From a virus: DNA of 23,324 nucleotides. Below, piece after piece: positions 3,178-17,653 of the stretch. The notes under the pieces were generated by a model. That model was not told the origin of the DNA. It saw only the letters and a list, made by a program, of their open reading frames with translations, and made no database searches. How positions within the stretch are numbered: the first letter of the stretch is position 1; each line of letters opens with the position of its first letter. The stretch covers positions 1-23,324 of IMG/VR virus record IMGVR_UViG_3300014502_000112; one strand, 5' to 3'. Both the position numbers and the translations under genes were made by a program.

Positions 3178-3828
3178 ATGGCAGACGCAATTACAGCAAT
3201 GAGAAATCCCGTTTCAGCCGCATTCATGGTAAATAAATATGATGACATTGATGGCGCGCGGGTAAATCAATCAACCGCAAGAGGTAAGCTTTGCTTCCGT
3301 GATTCAGACGGAAGAATGGTTCTTCCAGCTACACAAGCACAGGCAAATAAGGCTGTTTCTGCTGTAGACTGGGCAAAGCCACTTAACCCCGGACCATATT
3401 TCAACAATGGCAACGGGCTTAATGGTACTGGTCTTTATCCGTTCTCTGATGGTACAGAGGGCGCGGCAGAGAATTCATTTACTATGGACCCAAATGAGGC
3501 TTTCCAAACACCGTGGCCTGCTGCTGTAGCAGTTTATGAAATTCCACCACTGTTCTATAATCAGCCTGTTCCTTCTGGAGCAATGTGCTTGGTATATGAC
3601 GGAGAAACAACTGTAACTTATGCTTCAGGATATTATACTGGACTTATTACAGACTTTACGGTAGGAGCCGGTGTTTATGCAGACTGGGCTACTACAACTA
3701 AGGGCAATGTAACAGCCGGTAGCTTTAATGCTTCGGGTGTTGCAATTGGTATGGTTATGTCTAGAGGAACCTTCGGGGACCAGACACTAACTGTTAAACT
3801 ATTTGGCACATCTAACGCAAAACTGTAA
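3178..3828 (+). CDS. Putative capsid decoration protein
   Basis: A 216-residue soluble protein between scaffold and major capsid protein, the position of lambda gpD-like decoration proteins. It has a near-perfect ribosome binding site (AAAGGAGGT, 8 bases from the ATG), suggesting high expression. The composition is rich in Gly, Ala, Thr, Val and aromatics, with few charges. The C-terminal half (from about residue 130) reads as alternating beta strands: SGAMCLVYDG, YYTGLITDFTVGAG, GVAIGMVMSRG, QTLTVKLFG. I see no membrane segment or signal peptide. It could instead be a head fibre or an unrelated small head protein. The decoration call rests on location, expression signals and fold impression only. 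Confidence 0.5.
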   Translation: MADAITAMRNPVSAAFMVNKYDDIDGARVNQSTARGKLCFRDSDGRMVLPATQAQANKAVSAVDWAKPLNPGPYFNNGNGLNGTGLYPFSDGTEGAAENSFTMDPNEAFQTPWPAAVAVYEIPPLFYNQPVPSGAMCLVYDGETTVTYASGYYTGLITDFTVGAGVYADWATTTKGNVTAGSFNASGVAIGMVMSRGTFGDQTLTVKLFGTSNAKL

Positions 3829-3841
3829 GGAGGGATAAAGA

Positions 3842-4858
3842 ATGAGAGTACCGAATGATTCACGCATTACCCCCGAGCAGCGGAGTGCTTTTGCAGAAGT
3901 TGCCAAGACAGACAAGCAAGCATTGGCCGAGATTATAACGGAGTACATTGACCCCGTTTATCTAACAATTGATGTTGCTGGTGCCTTTATGAATACCAGA
4001 GAAATTAAGATTGGGGATATGCTTGTAAAGCGATATAAGGGTAAGTATAACGTACAGCAAATTGTACCGGGCCAAATAACATTGGGTCAGCAAATTGCTA
4101 TTAAAGATAAGGCCATGAGCTATAATCTAGATATTCTATCAGCGAAAGCTTCGTATAATACACTAGAACTGCAACATGGTGGGCCTAGTTTTACACCTGA
4201 AACTGTTAGATCAGATATTTCAAAGGCAATTCAGGAAAAACTAACTATGCGCATGTGGAATGCTCTTGCTAATGTATGGACCACAGGAAATGCATCAGCC
4301 TTAACTATTACAGGTTCAGGCAGTTCTAACTGGATTTCAGGTGGGGCAGCATTAACAGCAGCAGTACTAGATGCGGCTATTGATCACGTTAATTATTGGT
4401 CAGGATCAGTAAAAGCTATTGTTGGAACAGAAACCTCCTTAGCACCACTTTCTGAGTTTGGTCAGTATAAGATCGTAGGGGCAGTAGCAACCGATAGTGG
4501 CACACCACTAGCAACTAATGGTCAGCCTTTCGGACAATTCCAAGTAACTTCTCCTTACGGACCCGGAACAAAGGCCGTAGAGAATTATCGTGGAGTAAGC
4601 AATATTGTAAGAATTCCACAGATATTCGATAGAACGGATTATCCACCAAAGCCAATTCTTCCTGATAACTTTATATTAGTTGTTGGGGATAATATTGGTG
4701 AGTTTATTACTTACGGTGGTCCTCAGACAAAGGAATTTATTGACAACGAGCCAACTCCTCCTTATTGGAACTATGAGACATGGGTTCAGTATGGTATGAT
4801 GCTTTGGAACGCTCAGGGTCTTGTTAAGATCGAATTAACTACACAGACAAAGCCGTAA
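3842..4858 (+). CDS. Major capsid protein
   Basis: Probable HK97-fold major capsid protein of 338 residues. It follows the scaffold and decoration genes, has a strong ribosome binding site (AAGGAGGGATAAAG before the ATG), and is followed by a strong terminator, as for an abundant late product. The N-terminal part is helical and charged (residues 5-40). It is followed by a segment resembling the extended arm and spine region (MLVKRYKGKYNVQQIVPGQITLGQ), and a long helix around ETVRSDISKAIQEKLTMRMWNAL. An apical-domain-like middle and a conserved-looking C-terminal section follow (DNFILVVGDNIGEFITYGGPQTKEFIDNEPTPPYWN in outline, about residues 278-315). No long N-terminal delta domain is visible, in keeping with a separate scaffold. 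The family is inferred from length, order and composition. Confidence 0.8.
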   Translation: MRVPNDSRITPEQRSAFAEVAKTDKQALAEIITEYIDPVYLTIDVAGAFMNTREIKIGDMLVKRYKGKYNVQQIVPGQITLGQQIAIKDKAMSYNLDILSAKASYNTLELQHGGPSFTPETVRSDISKAIQEKLTMRMWNALANVWTTGNASALTITGSGSSNWISGGAALTAAVLDAAIDHVNYWSGSVKAIVGTETSLAPLSEFGQYKIVGAVATDSGTPLATNGQPFGQFQVTSPYGPGTKAVENYRGVSNIVRIPQIFDRTDYPPKPILPDNFILVVGDNIGEFITYGGPQTKEFIDNEPTPPYWNYETWVQYGMMLWNAQGLVKIELTTQTKP

Positions 4859-4876
4859 CCACTTTAAATTAATATC

Positions 4877-4920
4877 GAAGGGTCAAGAGTCAGTTTTGGC
4901 TCTTGACCCTTCCATTTTTG
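4877..4920 (+). terminator. Rho-independent terminator after the capsid gene
   Basis: A perfect 13-base-pair stem, GAAGGGTCAAGAG (4877-4889) with CTCTTGACCCTTC (4900-4912), a 10-base loop, then CATTTTTG. It ends 73 bases before the next gene and separates the major capsid gene from the connector genes. Confidence 0.9.
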
Positions 4921-4993: not shown

Positions 4994-5416
4994 ATGGACG
5001 AGGAACTTCAATTTTACAAGACTAATGTAAAATTTACTATTGGTATTAGATTTTCTACACAAGATAGAACAGGTATTGTACTAACTCCTAATAATCCTTA
5101 TGTGGGAATCAAGAAGAGTCAGATACGAGATTTTGTGTTAGCTAATAAGGCTATGCTAGAAAATGGTTATTTGATTGCTTCTACCGCACCCGATATAGAC
5201 TTTACTACAGAGAATGCTATCTCTGATGAACAAGCTACAGAACTTGTTAAGAGTTTATTTGCTCTTAAAAAGAAGCTGCCTTTTGTAACATCAGAGGGGG
5301 CACTATCCAAGCTTCTTGACGAGGCTAAGGCACAAAAGCGTTCTCAGAAAATTATTGATATGATTCAGGAAAGAATGGAAGAAATTACCCCTATAGCAAT
5401 GGAATCTGTCGAATAA
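4994..5416 (+). CDS. Unknown phage head/neck-region protein, 140 aa
   Basis: Not recognised. A good ribosome binding site (AGGAGG, 7 bases before the ATG). The N-terminal 60 residues look beta-rich (NVKFTIGIRF, TGIVLTPNNPYVGIKK). The C-terminal half is helical and Lys/Glu-rich, with ALKKKLPFVTSEGALSKLLDEAKAQKR and MIQERMEEI as amphipathic helices. No cysteines or membrane segments. It is the first gene after the capsid terminator and is followed 13 bases later by the probable adaptor, so a role in head completion or in the neck is plausible but unproven. Confidence 0.75.
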   Translation: MDEELQFYKTNVKFTIGIRFSTQDRTGIVLTPNNPYVGIKKSQIRDFVLANKAMLENGYLIASTAPDIDFTTENAISDEQATELVKSLFALKKKLPFVTSEGALSKLLDEAKAQKRSQKIIDMIQERMEEITPIAMESVE

Positions 5417-5429
5417 AGGAGTGACGTAT

Positions 5430-5891
5430 ATGGATTGTTTAGATTTGGTACCATCCTTTAAACGGCAATTAAAAAAGTATGTTCAGGCTGAGGACACGGA
5501 TTCTAAACTAGCTGGATATCTTTCGGACGGTATAAAATCACTTGCATTCAGGTGGTCAAGAGAGTATACTATTACTAGCCCCTCTTCGGAGTCATTCATA
5601 GTTACTCCAAGTGTGGTGCAGAGTGATGAACGACCAATCATCTTGGCATCGTCAATCATCTATAAAAGCTCACTATTATTAGGTAGCTTTAGGGATGGAG
5701 ACTTTGCTTATGATGTTCCAGCGGGCGCAAACAACCCTATACAAAGGGACATAGATGAGCTTAAAATACTTCTGCCTGTTTTACCCGGAAAGAGATTGGT
5801 AGCAGCTACAGTCTCCTCACTAAATGGCTTTGATAACTGGTATAATCCAGAGAGCTACAAGTGGTTAGGATATTTTGCAGCCCTAGTATAG
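5430..5891 (+). CDS. Probable head-tail adaptor (connector) protein
   Basis: A 153-residue protein beginning MDCLDLVPSFKRQLKKY. I chose the ATG at 5430 over the in-frame GTG at 5421, because AAAGGAG (5415-5421) includes that GTG and is 8 bases from the ATG. The pattern is that of small helical head-tail connector proteins that bind under the portal: a helical N-terminus with DSKLAGYLSDGIKSLAFRW, a strand pair, then a helix IILASSIIYKSSLLLG and a short C-terminal segment after IQRDIDELKILLPVLPG. Connectors such as SPP1 gp15 and HK97 gp6 share this kind of layout and lie downstream of the capsid gene. The assignment is from order and helix pattern. The next gene is a glycosyltransferase rather than the expected head-closure protein. 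Confidence 0.55.
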   Translation: MDCLDLVPSFKRQLKKYVQAEDTDSKLAGYLSDGIKSLAFRWSREYTITSPSSESFIVTPSVVQSDERPIILASSIIYKSSLLLGSFRDGDFAYDVPAGANNPIQRDIDELKILLPVLPGKRLVAATVSSLNGFDNWYNPESYKWLGYFAALV

Positions 5892-5901
5892 AAAGGAGCA
5901 C

Positions 5902-6552
5902 ATGGATACAGAAGTATTAATTCCAACTTATTTTGCTAATCAGATGACAGCGAATTGTATTGCATCCGTGTTAGTACAGGTTAAAGATGTAAGAATGTCT
6001 GTGTGGAAAAATAGCGTTGGTTGGTTAAAAGCGTGCAACTCAATGATGGCTTCGTCCACTACAGACGTTGTTTTACTTAATGATGATACCATTCTTCTAT
6101 CTGATATTGTTACTGAAATGAGTAAATTAGCGTATAGTGATCCTAAGATTGGCATTGTGGGCGGAAAAGCACTATCTAACGATGGTAATACCATTATTAA
6201 TTATGGAATCTATGTTGGGAGTGACGGCAACACCGCACATAGGCACTTTGGTCAGCCAAAGGATTCTGTGGGGGTAGAAAAACAACAAGCAGTTGAAGGG
6301 TCCTGCATATTTATAAAGAGAGAGGTACTTGATAAGATCGGGTACTTTGATGAAAACTATGGTATGGGTTACAGAGAGGAATGTGATCTGGCTTTTAGAG
6401 CAAGAGAGGCTGGCTATAAAATAGTGTCTTGTCCTACAGCCGAATATATTCACTATGTAAATCAAACACACGGTAGATTAAATATTCATAATGATAAGTT
6501 TGATTACTTCAATGAAAAATGGGGCCTAAAATTAAAACTTGGTCAGTTATAA
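5902..6552 (+). CDS. Family 2 (GT-A) glycosyltransferase, shortened
   Basis: Transfers a sugar from a nucleotide-sugar donor, by family knowledge; donor and acceptor are unknown. Visible GT2 landmarks are the N-terminal strand VLIPTY (5-10), the metal-binding DxD-type motif LLNDDT (58-63), the acceptor and catalytic-base region YREECDLAFRAREAGYKIV (157-175), and a late His in YIHYVNQTHG. This order and the closing sequence resemble rhamnosyltransferase-like GT2 enzymes. It is only 216 residues: the usual segment with the DNGSTD-type nucleotide-binding motif between the first helix and the N-x-G-x3-A-x-N helix (about 37-46) seems to be missing. It may therefore be a minimal or altered enzyme. 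No membrane segments. The ribosome binding site AAAGGAG is only 3 bases from the ATG, which may lower translation. It lies between neck genes and directly before a second glycosyltransferase. Confidence 0.85.
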   Translation: MDTEVLIPTYFANQMTANCIASVLVQVKDVRMSVWKNSVGWLKACNSMMASSTTDVVLLNDDTILLSDIVTEMSKLAYSDPKIGIVGGKALSNDGNTIINYGIYVGSDGNTAHRHFGQPKDSVGVEKQQAVEGSCIFIKREVLDKIGYFDENYGMGYREECDLAFRAREAGYKIVSCPTAEYIHYVNQTHGRLNIHNDKFDYFNEKWGLKLKLGQL

Positions 6553-6562
6553 GGAGAAGGTA

Positions 6563-7537
6563 ATGGCAGTTAGAGCAATTGGAGAATTAGCGATTTTCTA
6601 CGGAGACAAACCAAATACTGGGGAGTATGACAACGGGGTATGGATGCACTTGTTGGATATCCCCTATATACAGAAAGTTGAAGAGGCTGGTCTTTATAAA
6701 ACTATTATTCATACAATGTGGTTAGATGCAATTGGTTGGCATAAAGAAATACGTAATCGGTGGCCGCATATTGCTTTAATTGGATTGTCGGATCATCCCC
6801 TTAGCGCCCATATTTCAAAGATATCTGCGGATAAGCAGGTAGCATATATCAAAGACCTACAATATTTGGATGGGATCATGGCTCTTTCTGAAGAAGAGCG
6901 ATCATGGTACTCTGTTGCCTGCCCATCTAGACCTGTAGTAAATGTTGGACTTCCCTTTCCGGTACAGACTTATGAGGAACGTTTTGGTAAATTACGTGCC
7001 TCTGAAAAGAAATATGTTGGACTAGGCGTAGGCGCATCCGATAATGACAGGAATTTTGTAAGTAATGTACTTGCTTTTCAAAGACTAAAGTTAGAGTTTC
7101 CTGATATACAAGGAGTGTTTCTATCTATTCCAAGCCAGCTAATCCCGTATTGCGCGTACTGGGCAGACAATGTTGAAGGAGTGTTTATTCACGAGCGAAA
7201 AGATACAGAGGAATATATGGATATACTGTCTCAGTGTAAATTCGTATTTAACTTAGCTGATAGAAACACACCCGGAAGATTACAGGCTGAATCGGCTTTC
7301 CTAGAAATACCTTGCATTGGATCAGAGCGTCTTGCTTTGCAGTCTGAGCTATATCCTGATTTGTCTGTTAACCCCTTTGATCTAGAAAAGGCTGTAAATT
7401 TGGGGCGTGAAATTCTTACCAATGGTATAAACCATGAAATGGTAACGAATGCTAGAACTGTTTTGGAGACTAATTATAACTATGAAACGAGCAAACAAAA
7501 GTTTGATTCTTTATTAGCCCTTATAAGGGGTGATTAA
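6563..7537 (+). CDS. GT-B type glycosyltransferase (GT4-like)
   Basis: A 324-residue protein beginning MAVRAIGELAIFYGDK. The start is ATG 6563, with AAGGAG just upstream; the frame runs back to a TTG at 6539 that overlaps the previous gene and lacks a site. The N-terminal half has the look of a GT-B acceptor domain (YKTIIHTMWLDAIGWH, HIALIGLSDHPL). After the linker (VVNVGLPFPV) the C-terminal domain starts with KYVGLGVGASDNDRN, then AFQRLKLEFPDIQGVFLSI. It carries the typical donor-site section TPGRLQAESAFLEIPCIGSE (236-255), where Glu243 and the following Glu resemble the EX7E motif of GT4 enzymes. The C-terminus is helical, as in this fold. The donor and acceptor are unknown. With the preceding GT2 gene it forms a two-enzyme cassette 10 bases apart, likely acting on the same target in sequence. 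Confidence 0.78.
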   Translation: MAVRAIGELAIFYGDKPNTGEYDNGVWMHLLDIPYIQKVEEAGLYKTIIHTMWLDAIGWHKEIRNRWPHIALIGLSDHPLSAHISKISADKQVAYIKDLQYLDGIMALSEEERSWYSVACPSRPVVNVGLPFPVQTYEERFGKLRASEKKYVGLGVGASDNDRNFVSNVLAFQRLKLEFPDIQGVFLSIPSQLIPYCAYWADNVEGVFIHERKDTEEYMDILSQCKFVFNLADRNTPGRLQAESAFLEIPCIGSERLALQSELYPDLSVNPFDLEKAVNLGREILTNGINHEMVTNARTVLETNYNYETSKQKFDSLLALIRGD

Positions 7538-7539
7538 TT

Positions 7540-7995
7540 GTGTATGGTAGTTGGGTATTGCATGTAGAAGATACAATTTTGCCGGGAATTCAACGTATTA
7601 TTTATCTATATACTACAAGTAAATCAGCTTGTCCGACGTGCCTAGCGGCTACTGATTATGATTCAGTTAACGATTGCTCGTTTAATCCTAAATGTGCTAT
7701 CTGTAAGGGAGCGTATTGGGTGCTGACTGAGGTAGCAAACGCGGTACCTGCTAGGATACGATGGACCAATGATCAGAATATAACAGCCACACCCGGAGGA
7801 AAGTATTATGTAGGTGATGCCACAGCTAAGATCGGGCTGAAGTACTATGATTTGGCAATGTCTTGTCAAACATTTACTGGGCACGTATTAGTGGATGGTC
7901 ATGATATGACAATATCCAAGATTGTTCCTGTTGGAACACCTATAATAACGCAGTATCATTTAGTGCTTAAAAATATGGGTAATAGCCCAAAGTAA
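7540..7995 (+). CDS. Probable head-closure (neck) protein with Cys4 zinc-ribbon-like insert
   Basis: A 151-residue protein with a GTG start at 7540, with AAGGGGTGAT about 7 bases upstream. The stop of the preceding glycosyltransferase ends 2 bases before. After an N-terminal strand region come paired cysteines: CPTC (35-38) and, after a loop with one more Cys, CAIC (56-59) followed by KGAYW. The C-x2-C...C-x2-C-x-G spacing suggests a bound zinc. The rest is beta-rich: PARIRWTNDQ, GKYYVGDATAKIG, GHVLVDGHDMTISKIVPVG, TQYHLVLKNMG. Small beta-barrel stopper proteins of the neck (SPP1 gp16-type) end in this kind of V-D-G-x-x-x-x-I-x-x-I pattern. The neck call is an inference from fold pattern and gene order; the metal site is seen in sequence only. 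Confidence 0.5.
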   Translation: MYGSWVLHVEDTILPGIQRIIYLYTTSKSACPTCLAATDYDSVNDCSFNPKCAICKGAYWVLTEVANAVPARIRWTNDQNITATPGGKYYVGDATAKIGLKYYDLAMSCQTFTGHVLVDGHDMTISKIVPVGTPIITQYHLVLKNMGNSPK

Positions 7996-8007
7996 AAGGA
8001 GAAGGAA

Positions 8008-8274
8008 ATGGCAGTACCATCTAATGTAGTATGCCCTAAGTGTGGCAATCTATTTGAATATAACAAAGTGAATGGTATGCAATTGATTGAAGCCTTACAA
8101 GATATAGAGGCTCGTAAGAGAATGCATCTACGGTTAGCTTTGGATACAATTGAATTAATGTATAGACAGGGTTCACCACCTTACGCACTTATAAAAAAAG
8201 TTTTGTTAGATAAAATGAATGACTATACTAGAGATATTACCACAATACTTGGATTAGGTGAGGAAGTGGAATAA
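8008..8274 (+). CDS. Small protein with N-terminal CPKCG knuckle, 88 aa
   Basis: Unknown function. A good ribosome binding site (AAAGGAGAAGG before the ATG). Residues 9-13 read CPKCG followed by NLFEYN, the first half of a zinc ribbon, but no second Cys or His pair follows, so a metal site would need dimerisation or a partner. The remainder is helical: MQLIEALQDIEARKRMHLRLALDTIELMY and YALIKKVLLDKMNDYTRDITTIL. It follows another Cys-pair protein in the neck block, which may be relevant. It could be a small assembly or regulatory factor; I cannot choose. Confidence 0.75.
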   Translation: MAVPSNVVCPKCGNLFEYNKVNGMQLIEALQDIEARKRMHLRLALDTIELMYRQGSPPYALIKKVLLDKMNDYTRDITTILGLGEEVE

Positions 8275-8277
8275 GTA

Positions 8278-9144
8278 ATGGCAGGTTGGATGCCCCGCAT
8301 AGTAATAGATTCCTCAGGTGTAGAGGCTTTTGGTAAAGAATTGGCACAGGCAGTATCAGAGGCAGGTCCAATCATAACATCTGTTCTTAGATACAATGTT
8401 CCTCTTATAGTCAAAATGGTGCTGGAGGAAGCTTGTTTAGCGGCTGAGCCTAATTTTCCTCGTATATACACAGAGCATGTACTATCTCTAGCAGGGACCG
8501 TACCAGCTACAGTAGAGTTTATGGGATCAGACGTAGTAGTAAATGTAGACTTGGATTATTTAGGAACTTCCACCGATTTAGAGCGTGCATATCATAGACA
8601 TGCACTATTAGCAAGTTTAAGAGAGTTAAATGGTAAGGGTTCTCACCATTCATCCAGTATGTCTCAGTATAGATTAGAGGACCCTTATACCGGGCAAGAG
8701 TTATATAATGAGGAAGTAGAAAAAAGACAAGAGTTTTGGGAAACCTTAGTTGAAGGTGGAACTTATGTATCTAGAGGTCCCAAAGGTAGGGGCGTAGAAA
8801 TAAATACCGCTGGTATGTATGATCAAACTCTAATTGATAGGGTTGTAATATGGGGGAATAAGGCACCAGAATGGTTAATTTTGGAGTATGGTTCTCATGA
8901 ATCTAGTCCATATGTCGCACCGCAGGATGTAACAGGTATGATGGAAGAAGCAATTATTGCGTATGGTAATGATGTTTACACTGAATACACTAATAGTGCT
9001 CTACAAAATATAAGGTCTTACACTCCTAGAGCAACTTCCGAATCTACCTATTATGGCGGTTGGGGGGAACAGCCTATGTACTCTGATCTTGGTAAATATC
9101 AAGTACGTGGTGGCGGGGGAAGATTTGCCCCAATAAATATATAA
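8278..9144 (+). CDS. Probable neck / tail-completion protein (HK97 gp10-like position)
   Basis: A 288-residue protein whose ATG lies 3 bases after the preceding stop, so translation is probably coupled. The N-terminus has an amphipathic helical part (GVEAFGKELAQAVSEAGPIITSVLRYNVPLIVKMVLEEA). The middle contains a polar insertion rich in His/Ser (GKGSHHSSSMSQ) and a charged helix. The segment APEWLILEYGSHESSPYVAPQDVTGMMEEAI resembles the end of HK97 gp10-type minor tail/neck proteins, in which 'E-x-G-T/S...P.P...' precedes a final helix. About 75 extra residues follow, rich in Tyr/Gly and ending in an RGGGGRF stretch. It is larger than typical gp10 proteins (about 120-150 aa). The function is inferred from position just before the probable tail terminator. 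Confidence 0.45.
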   Translation: MAGWMPRIVIDSSGVEAFGKELAQAVSEAGPIITSVLRYNVPLIVKMVLEEACLAAEPNFPRIYTEHVLSLAGTVPATVEFMGSDVVVNVDLDYLGTSTDLERAYHRHALLASLRELNGKGSHHSSSMSQYRLEDPYTGQELYNEEVEKRQEFWETLVEGGTYVSRGPKGRGVEINTAGMYDQTLIDRVVIWGNKAPEWLILEYGSHESSPYVAPQDVTGMMEEAIIAYGNDVYTEYTNSALQNIRSYTPRATSESTYYGGWGEQPMYSDLGKYQVRGGGGRFAPINI

Positions 9145-9156
9145 GGAGATAGATAA

Positions 9157-9600
9157 ATGGGTAGAAAACAATATTATGAAAAAAGAAGTATTTCTACTGC
9201 ATTGCAAACATATCTCGCTACTCAGAGTTGGACTGGCCTAACGTTTAAAGAGGGCTGGAAGGACGAGGAGATACAAATAGGGGATGTAGCAATACAGATT
9301 CTTCCTAGTAGTCCTGTTCTTACAGATATGGGGCAACATGCTTCAACATATACATATACTGTACAAGTTGAAGCATACCTAGAGTCAGAGCCTCGTGCTG
9401 AGGCTTTTGAAGATGCTGTTATGGAATTCATGGATTTGGCCTCCATATCTATTGTAGATAAAAATAGTACTGTTTTAGGAAGCATAATTTGTGATACAGA
9501 CTCTATACGGGCTGATACCTTGCCCCCAGTTTTTACTACCCCCAAAGTATTGTGGTGGAGAGCAGTTATAAGAGGAAAATTTGAAGCCCATTATTACTAG
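9157..9600 (+). CDS. Probable tail terminator protein
   Basis: A 147-residue alpha/beta protein directly before the tail tube gene, where siphoviruses encode the protein that caps the tube and stops tail growth (lambda gpU, SPP1 gp17 type). The ribosome binding site is AAGGAG about 9 bases before the ATG. A first helix (RSISTALQTYLATQ) is followed by strands and a central stretch STYTYTVQVEAYLESEPRAEAFEDAVMEFMDLAS. This strand-helix pairing is characteristic of tail terminators. The C-terminus ends in a strand VLWWRAVIRGKFEAHYY. No cysteine cluster or membrane segment. The call rests on order and fold pattern. Confidence 0.5.
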   Translation: MGRKQYYEKRSISTALQTYLATQSWTGLTFKEGWKDEEIQIGDVAIQILPSSPVLTDMGQHASTYTYTVQVEAYLESEPRAEAFEDAVMEFMDLASISIVDKNSTVLGSIICDTDSIRADTLPPVFTTPKVLWWRAVIRGKFEAHYY

Positions 9601-9726
9601 ATTGTGCCCATTTGGGGCAATTTGAGAATATTAATAAATTAGACGGCCACGTATACATAAAAAAGAGCGGGGCTATAAAAGGAAAAGGCAATAATTTTTA
9701 TTAACCTTTTAGGAGGATGAAAACGC
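9601..9726 (+). promoter_or_regulatory. Leader of the tail tube gene with hairpin next to the ribosome binding site
   Basis: No gene. A weak hairpin (GCCC/GGGC around 9607-9618) has no T-run and is not a convincing terminator. Nearer the gene, AAAAGG (9683-9688) can pair with CCTTTT (9705-9710), and AATAA (9690-9694) with TTATT (9698-9702), giving a stem that ends one base before the AGGAGG at 9711-9716. The stem leaves the ribosome binding site free. Such placement could stabilise the message or keep the site open. Contains copy 2 of the 15-base motif. Confidence 0.45.
9692..9706 (+). repeat. 15-base intergenic motif, copy 2
   Basis: Identical to 1987-2001 (TAATTTTTATTAACC). Here it forms the loop and 3' side of the imperfect hairpin described for the tail tube leader. 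Confidence 0.45.
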
Positions 9727-10899
9727 ATGGCAAGACGATCCAGAATCCATTCTAGGGATTTACAGCCGTTAATCGCGGCCCCAAAGGGCCTGTTTGCTGC
9801 CGCTCGTGTACAAAGATTCGATTGGCCCCTAAGCATAGCAACCAATACGGTAGATGAACTGGGCAGAAAACTACACGTTGGTATGACACAAGAGATACCA
9901 ACAGTAACAGTTACTATTGAGGCGTTTGATGTAAGTCACAATACGTTCTCATATTTGACAGGGTATACTCCTGCAACCTATCCGGCATCTGGTGTGAGCA
10001 TCACATCACTTAAACCAATTGATGTTGTTGGAAACATTAGAGATACCAACTCTTTGCAAGTTGTAAACGCTTTATACGTTAGACGTGGGGCAATAACAGC
10101 GATGGATGCCTCATTCGGAGTAGCAGCTAACTCAACTATTACTTATACAGTAACTTCTAACAGTAAGAAAGAGTTAAGACAACCAGTAGTTTATGATAGT
10201 TTAACAGTTTCAGCAGCTTCCGGCGTTACTCTTTCTACTTCCCCCATTTTCTTAACTAGAACATCAGGGTATATTCTAGATTGCTATAGTAATACAGCAG
10301 GAACTTGGCTAAGTGAAGGAACAGACTTTACTGTGGCAGGTACCGCAGTAACATTCATTAATGGAACAGTTGGAGACAACGTTTGGTTAACATACTGTAA
10401 CGCTACAGCACAGACATTCCAAGCATTGGATAATGCCGCGCCAGCAGCTATTGCTGGTAAGTATGTTCCAGTCAAGATTAGTGTTAATACTATTCCTAGA
10501 GTACAGTCAGCAACAATTAGAGCAGCCCTTGCATCTGAGCAAATCAATGAAATGGGTTCGTTCGGTGTTCCAGTAGCAACTGAGCTAGGTATTCCTAGCG
10601 TTACTGGTGATCTAACGGTTCTAAAGACTGACAACGATCTAGTTAATATATTAACAGGTGCAGCCACATCTGCTGTAGAAGCAGATATGGGTTATACTCT
10701 AAACTCATTGCCGCTAAAGATTCAACTTTATAATCCAGCAAATACCTCACAGGTATTGTTAACTTACTATGTACCTTCTATCATCGTTACAAATGAGGGA
10801 GATTCTTCATCAGTTAACCAGTCTGTTCAGGAAACATTTGGTTGGCAGTCAGTTACAGGTGATCTGTTTGTAGCAAGCGGCTCTGGTCCGTGGGCATAA
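9727..10899 (+). CDS. Major tail tube protein
   Basis: Probable tail tube subunit, 390 residues. It lies between the tail terminator and the chaperone pair, the standard siphovirus order, and there is no sheath gene, which argues against a contractile tail. The ribosome binding site AGGAGG is strong and the gene is followed by a strong hairpin terminator, as for an abundant product. The protein is rich in Thr, Ser, Val and Ala and in alternating beta strands, without cysteine clusters. About residues 150-235 look like an inserted beta-sandwich domain: SGYILDCYSNTAGTWLSEGTDFTVAGTAVTFINGTVGDNVWLTYC. Such a module would decorate the outside of the tube. After it, residues 245-390 resume a tube-like pattern (YVPVKISVNTIP, LPLKIQLYNPANTSQVLLTYYVPSIIV). 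It is larger than minimal tube proteins, consistent with an added surface domain. Confidence 0.72.
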   Translation: MARRSRIHSRDLQPLIAAPKGLFAAARVQRFDWPLSIATNTVDELGRKLHVGMTQEIPTVTVTIEAFDVSHNTFSYLTGYTPATYPASGVSITSLKPIDVVGNIRDTNSLQVVNALYVRRGAITAMDASFGVAANSTITYTVTSNSKKELRQPVVYDSLTVSAASGVTLSTSPIFLTRTSGYILDCYSNTAGTWLSEGTDFTVAGTAVTFINGTVGDNVWLTYCNATAQTFQALDNAAPAAIAGKYVPVKISVNTIPRVQSATIRAALASEQINEMGSFGVPVATELGIPSVTGDLTVLKTDNDLVNILTGAATSAVEADMGYTLNSLPLKIQLYNPANTSQVLLTYYVPSIIVTNEGDSSSVNQSVQETFGWQSVTGDLFVASGSGPWA

Positions 10900-10923
10900 G
10901 ATAATTCAATAAAAGGATAGGGC

Positions 10924-12031: not shown

Positions 12032-15000
12032 ATGGCTGGTGGGATATCCTACAACATTGGTTGGAGAGGCGATCTAAGCGGGCTGCAAAACTTTACGCGC
12101 GCATCTGAAACACAGATAGGGGCACTAAATAGACAGATGCAGGAAGCAAGTATGGCCGTTGCAACGCAAACCCTTGGTACACCTGTGTACTCTTCTCAGG
12201 AAGCTCTTCTTACTTCTTTAGGGACAAAGGGTGAAGGAACATTTGTAAAATCCTCTTATGATTTAGATCAGTATAATAAAGTATTAAAACAAACTACCGT
12301 GGCAAGTAGGCAACTAGGTGACGGTACTTCTTTTGTATATGATAAGTTTGATCGTTATGTTTCCAATACTGATGAATTAACAGCCGCTATAAAAAGACAA
12401 AGTGATGCTAGTCAGGCTTATCAGGGATTTCTTGCCAATAATAATATAGAAGAAGAGAAAGTTGCAGCCAAAAAGGGAGTAAGTGCCTCCGCTACGAAAG
12501 CACTTACTGCACAATATACATCATTAAAAAATGAGGTAAAAAATGCTACTGAGGCTGTAAAAGCTGCTGGAAGTTCCGATGAATTAACACAAGCCACACA
12601 AAAACAAAGTGCTGCTAATCAAGCTCTAAATACGTTTCTTTCTAATAATAACATAGAAGAAGAGAAGGTTGTAGCAGTACGAGGTAGACATACTGCTGCA
12701 ACTCAGGCACTTACTACCCAATATACTGCATTAAAAAACGAAGCTGAAAGTGCCACTAATGCAGTAGATAAATCATTGCGATCTGCATCAACGATTATGC
12801 CTAAAAATATTCAATTGATGGAAGCTAATGCGAAGGGATTATATAATCAATTACTTGGGGCTGGTCTTGGATCAGGTCAATTTAGTACTGTAGAAAATAT
12901 GTATCAAAATGCTAATATAAATGTCCCTATAAAAAATATGCGGACTGGCATGACTGAGTATAGTGGGGAATTCCAAAATTTACAAGGGTACATGACTAGA
13001 TTTAGTGCTGAGGTTGATAATACAGGCAAGGTTATCACTCGTTTTGGTGGGCAAATGTCAGGTTTCTCTAACATGCTTAACCAAACAGGTAGAAACTTCC
13101 TGAAAGTTATTGAATGGACTATCGCTACTACTGCTGTTATTGGAACCCTTGGTTTCGCAATGCAGAAGTTGTCCGAAATAACTGCTCTAGACAAGTCTCT
13201 AAGACAGTTCTCATTGACTGCTAGTATGTCAATTGGAGAGGCAAGAGATTACTTCTCTGTTATCTCTGACGTAGCAAACAAGACTGCTACTCCAATTCAA
13301 GAAATGATTAGTGCGATGGATGATATTGCTTTGGCTACACAAAAAGCAGGGCAATCAGCTAGCCAGTGGAAAGCATCTATAGAACAGGTAGCTACAGCCG
13401 TAGGTGTACTAACTAATATTGCTAATATGACAACGGTTGAAGCAACTGACTCCTTAACAGCTATTATGAAGCAGCTAAGTTTACTTCCTTCACAATTAAT
13501 GGATATAGAAAACAAGATTGCTGCCGTTGCTAATGGTCAGGCTAATGCTATTTCAGACATTACTAAGGGTCTTTCAGTAATGGCCCAAGCTGGTACACAG
13601 GCACAAATGACTATAGATCAACAAATTGGTGCCATTCAAGTGCTATCTCAGGTAACAGCTAAAACTCCCGCTGAAGTGGCTACATCATTCAAGAACTTGG
13701 TAGGTTCTATTGACTCATCAGGCTCTATTAAAGAGCTTAATAAGTTTGGTATTTCTGTGCGGGATGCTGCAGGAAATATGCGTCCCTTCTTGGATATATA
13801 TGGTGATATTAGAAAGGCTATTGATACTGGTGTTATTAGTGCTGGTCAAGAGAAGGAAGTTGTTAAGGCTATTTCTGGTGGCCCAAGACGAGCACCTGAT
13901 GCTGCTGCTTTGCTGGAAGCTTATAATCAAATTGCTGCTGCAACGCAAAAATCTACAGATGCTACAAACGAGGCTTTAGCTGCTAATGCAAGAATAGTAT
14001 CATCTATATCCGCACAATTTACCGTATTCCAAAACAAGCTAACAGAATTCTTCTTCGATAAATTTGCTGCTGGAATGAGTGATATGGCAGGACAGATAGT
14101 ACCTGTTCTTACAGGGGTATTGGATGTTATAACTGGAATAGGCTCAGTACTAGGTCCTTTGGTTCCGATGTTGAGAGACATTGTTGCTGGATTTATTGCA
14201 GTGAAAGTAGCTGCCTTTGGTCTTAAAATAATTAGTGCCCTAAGTATAGATTTTAATGCATTAAAATTAGCTGCTATATCAACATATGATGCGATGGCAG
14301 GAAATATTGAAAAGGCTACATTAGCTACAGAGGGTTTAAATACCGCAACTGCAACTGAGATTGATTTATTGAAGCAACAGCAAATAGCAGCAACGTCTGC
14401 GGGCGCAGCTACTACGGAAGCTGCTACTGCTTCTGCTCTTGCAAGTAAGGGTTCTATGGCATCAAGATTTATGGGTGGGGCATTAGTAGGAAAATCTGGT
14501 ATGGCATTAGGTTTGGTAGCAGGTGGTGCTGCTATAGCTGGATCAGTCATGGGAGGAGGTAACGTTTCCCAAGATTTAGGTAATGCAATGGCAGCTTTGG
14601 GTATGGGTATATCTGTAGTACAGCCTGAATTAGCCCCGTTCGGTATAGCTTTATCTGCAGTAGGTATGGCAGTAAGTTTATTTGGTCAAAATACTGGGGA
14701 AGCCGCACAAAAGGTGGCTGAATTAAAACAACAGCAACTAGATTCTTATCAATCTATTAAACAACTTCAATCTCAGTATGATTCTCTTACTTCTCAACAG
14801 GCTGAGGATAAAACCATTATGGATAGACTTAGCGGGGCGACCAACTTATCTACCGATGATCTAAATCAACTATCACAAGCATCTGACGATTATTATACTA
14901 TTGCTGGTAAATTAGTTACCATAAATAATTCCTTATTTGAATCTTATCAAAAGTTACTACAGGCCACACCTGAGTTAGCGGCGAAATATCCCGATCTAGC

Positions 15001-16915: not shown

Positions 16916-17653
16916 ATGGAACGAAAATCAAATAAAACTAAACGCCCAGTACCAGAAAATTTAGTGGGGGAGTTTACTCAGGAGGAATGGGGTGCCCTTC
17001 CCTCTTATGCTAGATATAAGATAATCAAAAGAGGAACTTCTGTTGGAACAGTATATGACAGAAATCTAAAGGATTTAAAGGTGTGGACTAACAATATGAT
17101 TAGAAGGCCCATTCCAGAAAATCTTTCCAAAGAATTTACTGAAGAAGAATGGTATGCCTTACCTTCATACCTTAGATATAGATACACCAAAAAGGGTACA
17201 AGTAAAAGTAATAGGGGAGGAAAAGTACTCCCTATACCTCCCGATTTAGAGGAAACTTTCTCTAGAGAAGAGTGGGATAATTTATCTATATTCCAAAGAT
17301 TTGAGATTAAGCACAGAAACAGCCCAAAAAGGTCTATGAGGGGAATATATCTTAATCACGGTATATCTCCCGAATTTTATTGGGAAATATTTGATAAACA
17401 GGAAGGAAAGTGTGCCATCTGTAATCAGGTGGTACTACCTAGAGAGCGTACTCGCTCTGGTAAAAAGTTTATGTATACACCTAAATTAACTGTAGATCAT
17501 AATCATAAGTGTTGTGAGGGTGCAACCTCTTGTTCAAATTGTTTTAGGGGTTTACTTTGTAATAGTTGTAATTGGTTGCTTGGTCAAGCAAAGGATGATC
17601 CACAGATATTGCGAGCAGCAGCCAACTACTTAGAAAACGCGCGGCAACTATAG
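16916..17653 (+). CDS. Free-standing HNH / endonuclease VII-like homing endonuclease with three N-terminal repeats
   Basis: A DNA-cutting enzyme, 245 residues. The C-terminal domain shows CAIC (166-169), then the catalytic VDHNH stretch (193-197) and RGLLCNSCN (211-219), the zinc-bound beta-beta-alpha metal fold of the recombination endonuclease VII (HNH) family; an additional CC...C-x2-C cluster lies at 199-209. The N-terminal 140 residues contain three 32-residue repeats (11-42, 65-96, 106-137) with the shared pattern P-[VI]-P-x2-L-x3-F-[TS]-x-E-E-W-x2-L, then a basic tail (KRGTS, KKGTS). The first two are the closest. These are probably DNA-binding modules. It sits between the tape measure and distal tail genes, where a conserved gene pair is normally adjacent, as expected for a mobile endonuclease inserted in a late operon. 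Expression looks restrained by the RNA leader. I see no intron around it. Confidence 0.88.
   Translation: MERKSNKTKRPVPENLVGEFTQEEWGALPSYARYKIIKRGTSVGTVYDRNLKDLKVWTNNMIRRPIPENLSKEFTEEEWYALPSYLRYRYTKKGTSKSNRGGKVLPIPPDLEETFSREEWDNLSIFQRFEIKHRNSPKRSMRGIYLNHGISPEFYWEIFDKQEGKCAICNQVVLPRERTRSGKKFMYTPKLTVDHNHKCCEGATSCSNCFRGLLCNSCNWLLGQAKDDPQILRAAANYLENARQL

Follow-up and report, generated by a model that had tools for sequence, protein, structure and literature searches.

A glycosyltransferase gene pair at a fixed site among the neck genes of uncultured long-tailed phages, a candidate virion glycosylation system

Known phage glycosyltransferase cassettes and the present locus

Virion glycosylation in tailed phages has been shown for actinobacteriophages, in which it changes antibody recognition. 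In Corndog (Cluster O), the slot between the portal and protease genes encodes an O-methyltransferase (gp35), glycosyltransferases (gp36-37), and a GlcNAc-transferase (gp38); gp35-38 were seen in infected cells and were absent from purified virions, from which few capsid peptides were recovered (PMC4351075). According to papers citing Freeman et al. 2023, enzymes of the Corndog type modify the capsid and the tail tube (PMC11600133, PMC12363180). A later paper places the glycans of mycobacteriophages at the C-terminal ends of these two proteins (PMC12619734). In Che8 (Cluster F), gp110 is needed for capsid glycosylation (PMC12363180). Synechococcus phage S-CBS4 carries a GT-B enzyme, a GT2 enzyme, and a methyltransferase (gp14-16), of putative function, inside its structural genes.

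The window analyzed here is a virus fragment of 23,324 bases, whose + strand carries a head-neck-tail gene series with two glycosyltransferase genes, designated GT-A and GT-B after the predicted folds of their products. The relevant features are as follows.

3178..3828, + strand: decoration-like gene adjoining the capsid gene, candidate acceptor, by position and conservation only
3842..4858, + strand: major capsid protein, candidate glycan acceptor, with a Ser/Thr-rich conserved C terminus (consensus VTSTxP)
4877..4912, + strand: terminator-like hairpin with a 16-bp stem, at the boundary between the capsid gene and the neck and glycosyltransferase series
5421..5891, + strand: left flank, head-tail adaptor by position, in a gene order common to GX15bay and all relatives
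5902..6552, + strand: GT-A gene, encoding a soluble, GT2-like glycosyltransferase of 216 aa with a predicted GT-A fold
6563..7537, + strand: GT-B gene, encoding a GT4-like glycosyltransferase of 324 aa with a predicted GT-B fold
7540..7995, + strand: right flank, probable stopper (head-closure) protein, with weak PHROG 793 matches
9727..10899, + strand: major tail tube protein by position, candidate acceptor, by synteny and an HMM match to GX15bay

Corndog resembles the present group in having several glycosyltransferases in the structural operon of a siphovirus and methyltransferase partners in the genome (PMC4351075, PMC11600133). As judged from its published description, it differs in the portal-protease slot and in the methyltransferase within the cassette; Corndog virion proteins are modified (PMC4351075, PMC11600133), as is proposed for the present group. 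The pair consists of same-direction glycosyltransferases in a virion structural operon and, by analogy, would work like the Corndog kind from a different slot. Che8 gp108-110 are likewise tandem glycosyltransferases, but their genes map to the opposite end of the genome (56-59 kb), well away from the structural genes, and the adaptor and stopper genes of Che8 are adjacent. No HMM match linked gp108-110 to GT-A or GT-B, and the two sets were not classed as homologous. The S-CBS4 genes are placed between the portal and the protease/capsid genes; gp15 can be aligned weakly with GT-A over the GT-A length (E 0.004), whereas gp14 resembles a separate GT4 of the relatives (36%) and not GT-B.

Gene order and conservation of the pair

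The GT-A gene starts with ATG, upstream of which stands AGAAAGGAGC, and the GT-B gene starts with ATG at 6563, with an earlier in-frame codon, TTG, at 6539. The open reading frames on the + strand confirmed the initial annotation of two glycosyltransferases 10 bases apart, in the same direction, between adaptor and stopper; a further 2 bases separate the end of GT-B from the gene at 7540. The only other + strand terminator-like site before 9777 was a stem of 6 pairs (7517-7531) within the 3′ end of GT-B, and shuffled sequences give such stems too. Given the hairpin after the capsid gene and the weakness of this second stem, the pair probably shares one neck-gene transcription unit.

The left flank (5421-5891) had no family match, while PHROG 793 ("head-tail adaptor") was weakly matched by 8 of 19 orthologues of the right flank (best 4.9e-4). 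It is mainly gene order, and to a lesser degree sequence similarity, that places the pair between adaptor and stopper. The probable stopper of the window has a Cys-rich stretch (CPTC...CAIC), likely a metal site, which is absent in relatives L006 and L018 and is therefore not essential.

Viral contigs were scanned from five anchor genes (GT-B, capsid, tube, adaptor, and GT-A), all of which gave the same group of uncultured long-tailed phages, with the longest contigs of 105-120 kb. The scans reach relatives sharing short conserved peptides, so that phages further removed, whether or not they have the pair, may be missed. Relatives were grouped by distinct adaptor sequence, and the counts cover those with enough sequence. 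GT-A followed the adaptor in 27/27 distinct relatives, GT-B came next in all 22 in which both genes could be placed in the slot, and the stopper followed GT-B in each of the 19 that extended far enough. Some lineages (L005, L016, L034) had an extra gene or spacer within the slot, and the pair occurred once in each of the 11 longer contigs searched. The fixed late-operon place proposed earlier, for which a search of related genomes had been suggested as the check, is thus strongly supported, and the pair was not found elsewhere in these contigs, which would have spoken against it. Among 50,697 phage records, no isolate matched positions 5000-10900 of the window at the DNA level, and GT-B, capsid, and stopper had no protein match; genome contigs yielded no relative of GT-B or capsid from which a host might be assigned.

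Extra genes were observed along the series. The extra ORF of L005 (9176-9982), between adaptor and GT-A, appeared by eye to be cell-wall hydrolase-like (glucosaminidase-like), and in L053 an HNH endonuclease-like match near 13308 separates GT-A from GT-B. The window itself has an HNH gene at 16916-17653, between the tape measure and distal tail genes, where L002 and L003 have none.

Mean pairwise identities across 13 taxa were 73.6% for capsid, 65.6% for tube, 63.5% for adaptor, 62.4% for the decoration-like protein, 60.9% for GT-B, 60.7% for GT-A, 54.6% for stopper, and 41.7% for the tail terminator, which places the pair (61%) close to the adaptor and decoration-like proteins. Judged by identity to the window alone, the pair seemed to equal the capsid in conservation, but the means over the 13 taxa (74% for capsid versus 61% for the pair) put the capsid clearly ahead. 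The dN/dS values of the pair were approximately 0.07-0.12 in the closest pairs, as for the capsid, with dS near saturation, and point to purifying selection on both genes. GT-A and capsid distances were weakly correlated (Spearman 0.14, Mantel 0.54; 13 taxa), and GT-A identities followed those of its neighboring genes poorly in general. Because GT-A distances track those of the capsid weakly, GT-A may have been exchanged between lineages, or selection on it may have shifted.

A comparison is offered by GX15bay (Caudovirales, uncultured, 52 kb, mangrove soil), a distant relative that shares the head-neck-tail order and has homologs of the capsid, zinc-ribbon-like, and tube genes. Its genes run capsid, 4994-like, adaptor-position, stopper-position, zinc-ribbon-like, and tail tube, with HMM matches of 4.3e-7 for capsid, 1.4e-8 for the 4994-like gene, 3.1e-5 for the zinc-ribbon-like gene, and 2.9e-27 for tube. 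Unlike in the present group, however, its adaptor- and stopper-position genes are adjacent, and the slot holds no glycosyltransferase. The simplest reading of this order would be insertion of the pair in an ancestor of the present group, while loss in GX15bay is possible. The GX15bay gene at MK557849.1:33831-35048 is annotated as "epimerase," yet it is the one matched by the tail tube profile at 2.9e-27, and the label is probably a misannotation.

Predicted folds and donor sites

GT-A matched Pfam PF13641 above the curated cut-off (E 3.9e-11), and its AlphaFold model (mean pLDDT 92.2) was closest in the PDB to GalNAc-T2, GlfT2, and WrtF (E ~1e-10); fold and Pfam match together mark it as GT2-like, with a predicted GT-A fold. 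In an alignment of 24 sequences, N60-D61-D62, a DXD-type metal site, and R158-x-E160, an acidic base motif, were invariant. The donor-binding Asp after the second strand (DNGST-type motif) was not found in GT-A. In its alignment with S-CBS4 gp15, which is single and weak (E 0.004), GT-A is without the strand and DNG-type segment of gp15, and the invariant K36-N37 stands where gp15 has that segment. Nor did GT-A align meaningfully with another GT2 found in the relatives.

The GT-B protein of the window itself had no meaningful Pfam or PHROG match, whereas 16 of its 22 orthologues matched Glyco_trans_1_2 (PF13524; best 1e-8). Its AlphaFold model (pLDDT 89.8) matched GT-B/GT4 enzymes in the PDB with E values down to 4.5e-11 (6kih), which supports a GT-B fold, and the fold matches included sucrose-phosphate synthase, MshA, BshA, SdgB, and TarM. 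Enzymes of the GT4 family carry the motif E-x7-E. In a 22-sequence alignment of GT-B, N235-x7-E243 was invariant: the second Glu is kept, and Asn replaces the first. Consequently, we named GT-B GT4-like and not a GT4 member.

GalNAc-T2 and SdgB are protein-modifying enzymes, but at 10-15% identity, and unrelated enzymes of other specificity matched equally well; the fold neighbors of GT-A and GT-B do not give their specificity. Sequence searches of the PDB with profiles of GT-A, GT-B, and the flanking genes returned nothing useful. Since the donor sites of GT-A and GT-B both differ from the classical motifs, their activity is something we infer, and the models and conserved residues make catalysis likely rather than certain.

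Candidate targets of the pair

Other glyco-genes were searched for in 8 large contigs, several of them fragments, the 23,324-base window being too short to show such genes. A GT4 gene after the tail genes (45903-47126 in a relative of 119,870 bases) and a GT2-methyltransferase fusion (115609-117093 in the same relative) were each found in 7/8 contigs. The 119,870-base relative also has a variable cluster with O-methyltransferase, FkbM, and glycosyltransferase genes (109282-112970) and a pyruvyl transferase gene with a GT2 gene (8183-9854). Families of nucleotide-sugar synthesis (NAD-epimerase, NTP_transferase) were absent from all 8 contigs, in searches with positive controls. As a separate observation, this relative (L069-L074) encodes approximately 28 tRNA genes, some of them called with anticodons cta and tca, together with a CCA-adding enzyme, an RNA ligase, and Ro60/TROVE domain genes.

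The position in the late operon fixes the timing of expression and not the target, and several targets were therefore weighed. We regard it as unlikely that the enzymes decorate host surface glycans late, keeping new virions off debris or excluding competitors. Wall-polymer enzymes such as TarM are among the fold neighbors of GT-B, and genes typical of surface polysaccharide loci (polysaccharide pyruvyl transferase, FkbM) occur in some contigs; but the protein-modifying SdgB and GalNAc-T2 are equally close in fold, and all relatives have the pair embedded in the neck series. Both proteins also are without membrane segments, with highest 19-residue hydrophobicity means of 1.49 (GT-A) and 1.63 (GT-B) and nothing like the segment typical of membrane-bound GtrB-type enzymes, and GtrA was found in none of the 8 large contigs in a search with positive controls. 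A Gtr serotype-conversion cassette, which would have GtrA and a membrane-anchored glycosyltransferase, was rejected.

Glycosylation of phage DNA by the pair is improbable. Some phage glycosyltransferases are known for this activity, and a viral DNA alpha-GT appears, at rank 49, among the more distant fold matches of GT-B, but the pair does not adjoin DNA-modification genes, a location that the initial annotation had named as counting against a virion target. No member of the thymidylate synthase/hydroxymethylase (ThyA-like) family was found in the 8 large contigs, where the positive controls matched, nor was any Tet/JBP, in a search run without a positive control. A phage DNA-glucosylation system, with its hydroxymethyl-pyrimidine synthase, was likewise set aside as a class for the pair.

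Just as improbable, in our estimate, is that the proteins have kept glycosyltransferase folds without catalysis and now act in the neck as assembly factors or structural components. The fixed slot amid neck genes and the donor-site features missing from both enzymes would fit such a role, but NDD and R-x-E in GT-A and E243 in GT-B are invariant over 22-24 sequences, further glyco-enzymes are conserved in the same genomes, and GX15bay maintains the gene order without the pair. Finally, host takeover is a PHROG category under which phage glycosyltransferases are commonly listed, but a tool of anti-defense or takeover that glycosylates a host protein is very improbable, as the late-operon place and strict conservation fit assembly better than early takeover.

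Position, conservation, and precedent favor virion glycosylation, and the phages of this group likely put sugars on their own particles. We consider it fairly probable that a system glycosylating virion proteins with host nucleotide sugars has the pair as its conserved core. The virion-protein target suggested in the initial annotation is thereby supported in part: the fixed late-operon place and the Corndog precedent add to it, while the target itself and catalysis are what we infer. The departures of GT-A and GT-B from donor motifs and the weak tracking between GT-A and capsid distances count against this assignment.

If the pair does act on the virion, the two soluble enzymes would be translated together with the neck proteins from the late operon and would use nucleotide sugars supplied by the host. 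On at least one virion protein, free or assembling in the cytoplasm, they would build a glycan of two or more sugars, with the first sugar added by one enzyme and extended by the other, in either order. The acceptor would most likely be the capsid protein, whose gene (3842-4858) had PHROG matches without a named function, the decoration-like protein, or the tail tube protein, of which 21% is Ser+Thr. The conserved GT4, the GT2-methyltransferase fusion, and lineage-specific glycosyltransferase, methyltransferase, and pyruvyltransferase genes would then elaborate the glycan. A more specific version, which we hold only tentatively and think rather doubtful, is that the whole uncultured group makes an elaborate, partly methylated virion glycan that is obligatory in assembly, with a shortened GT-A and a GT-B, both of altered donor sites, modifying a protein of the neck, capsid, or tube.

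Every environmental relative seen carries the pair at this site among its neck genes, and no relationship of the pair to the Che8 enzymes was detected. Should the pair modify the virion, glycosylation of particles would be an old and probably required trait of environmental phages and would have to serve another purpose in them, for example stability, adsorption, or protection from proteases.
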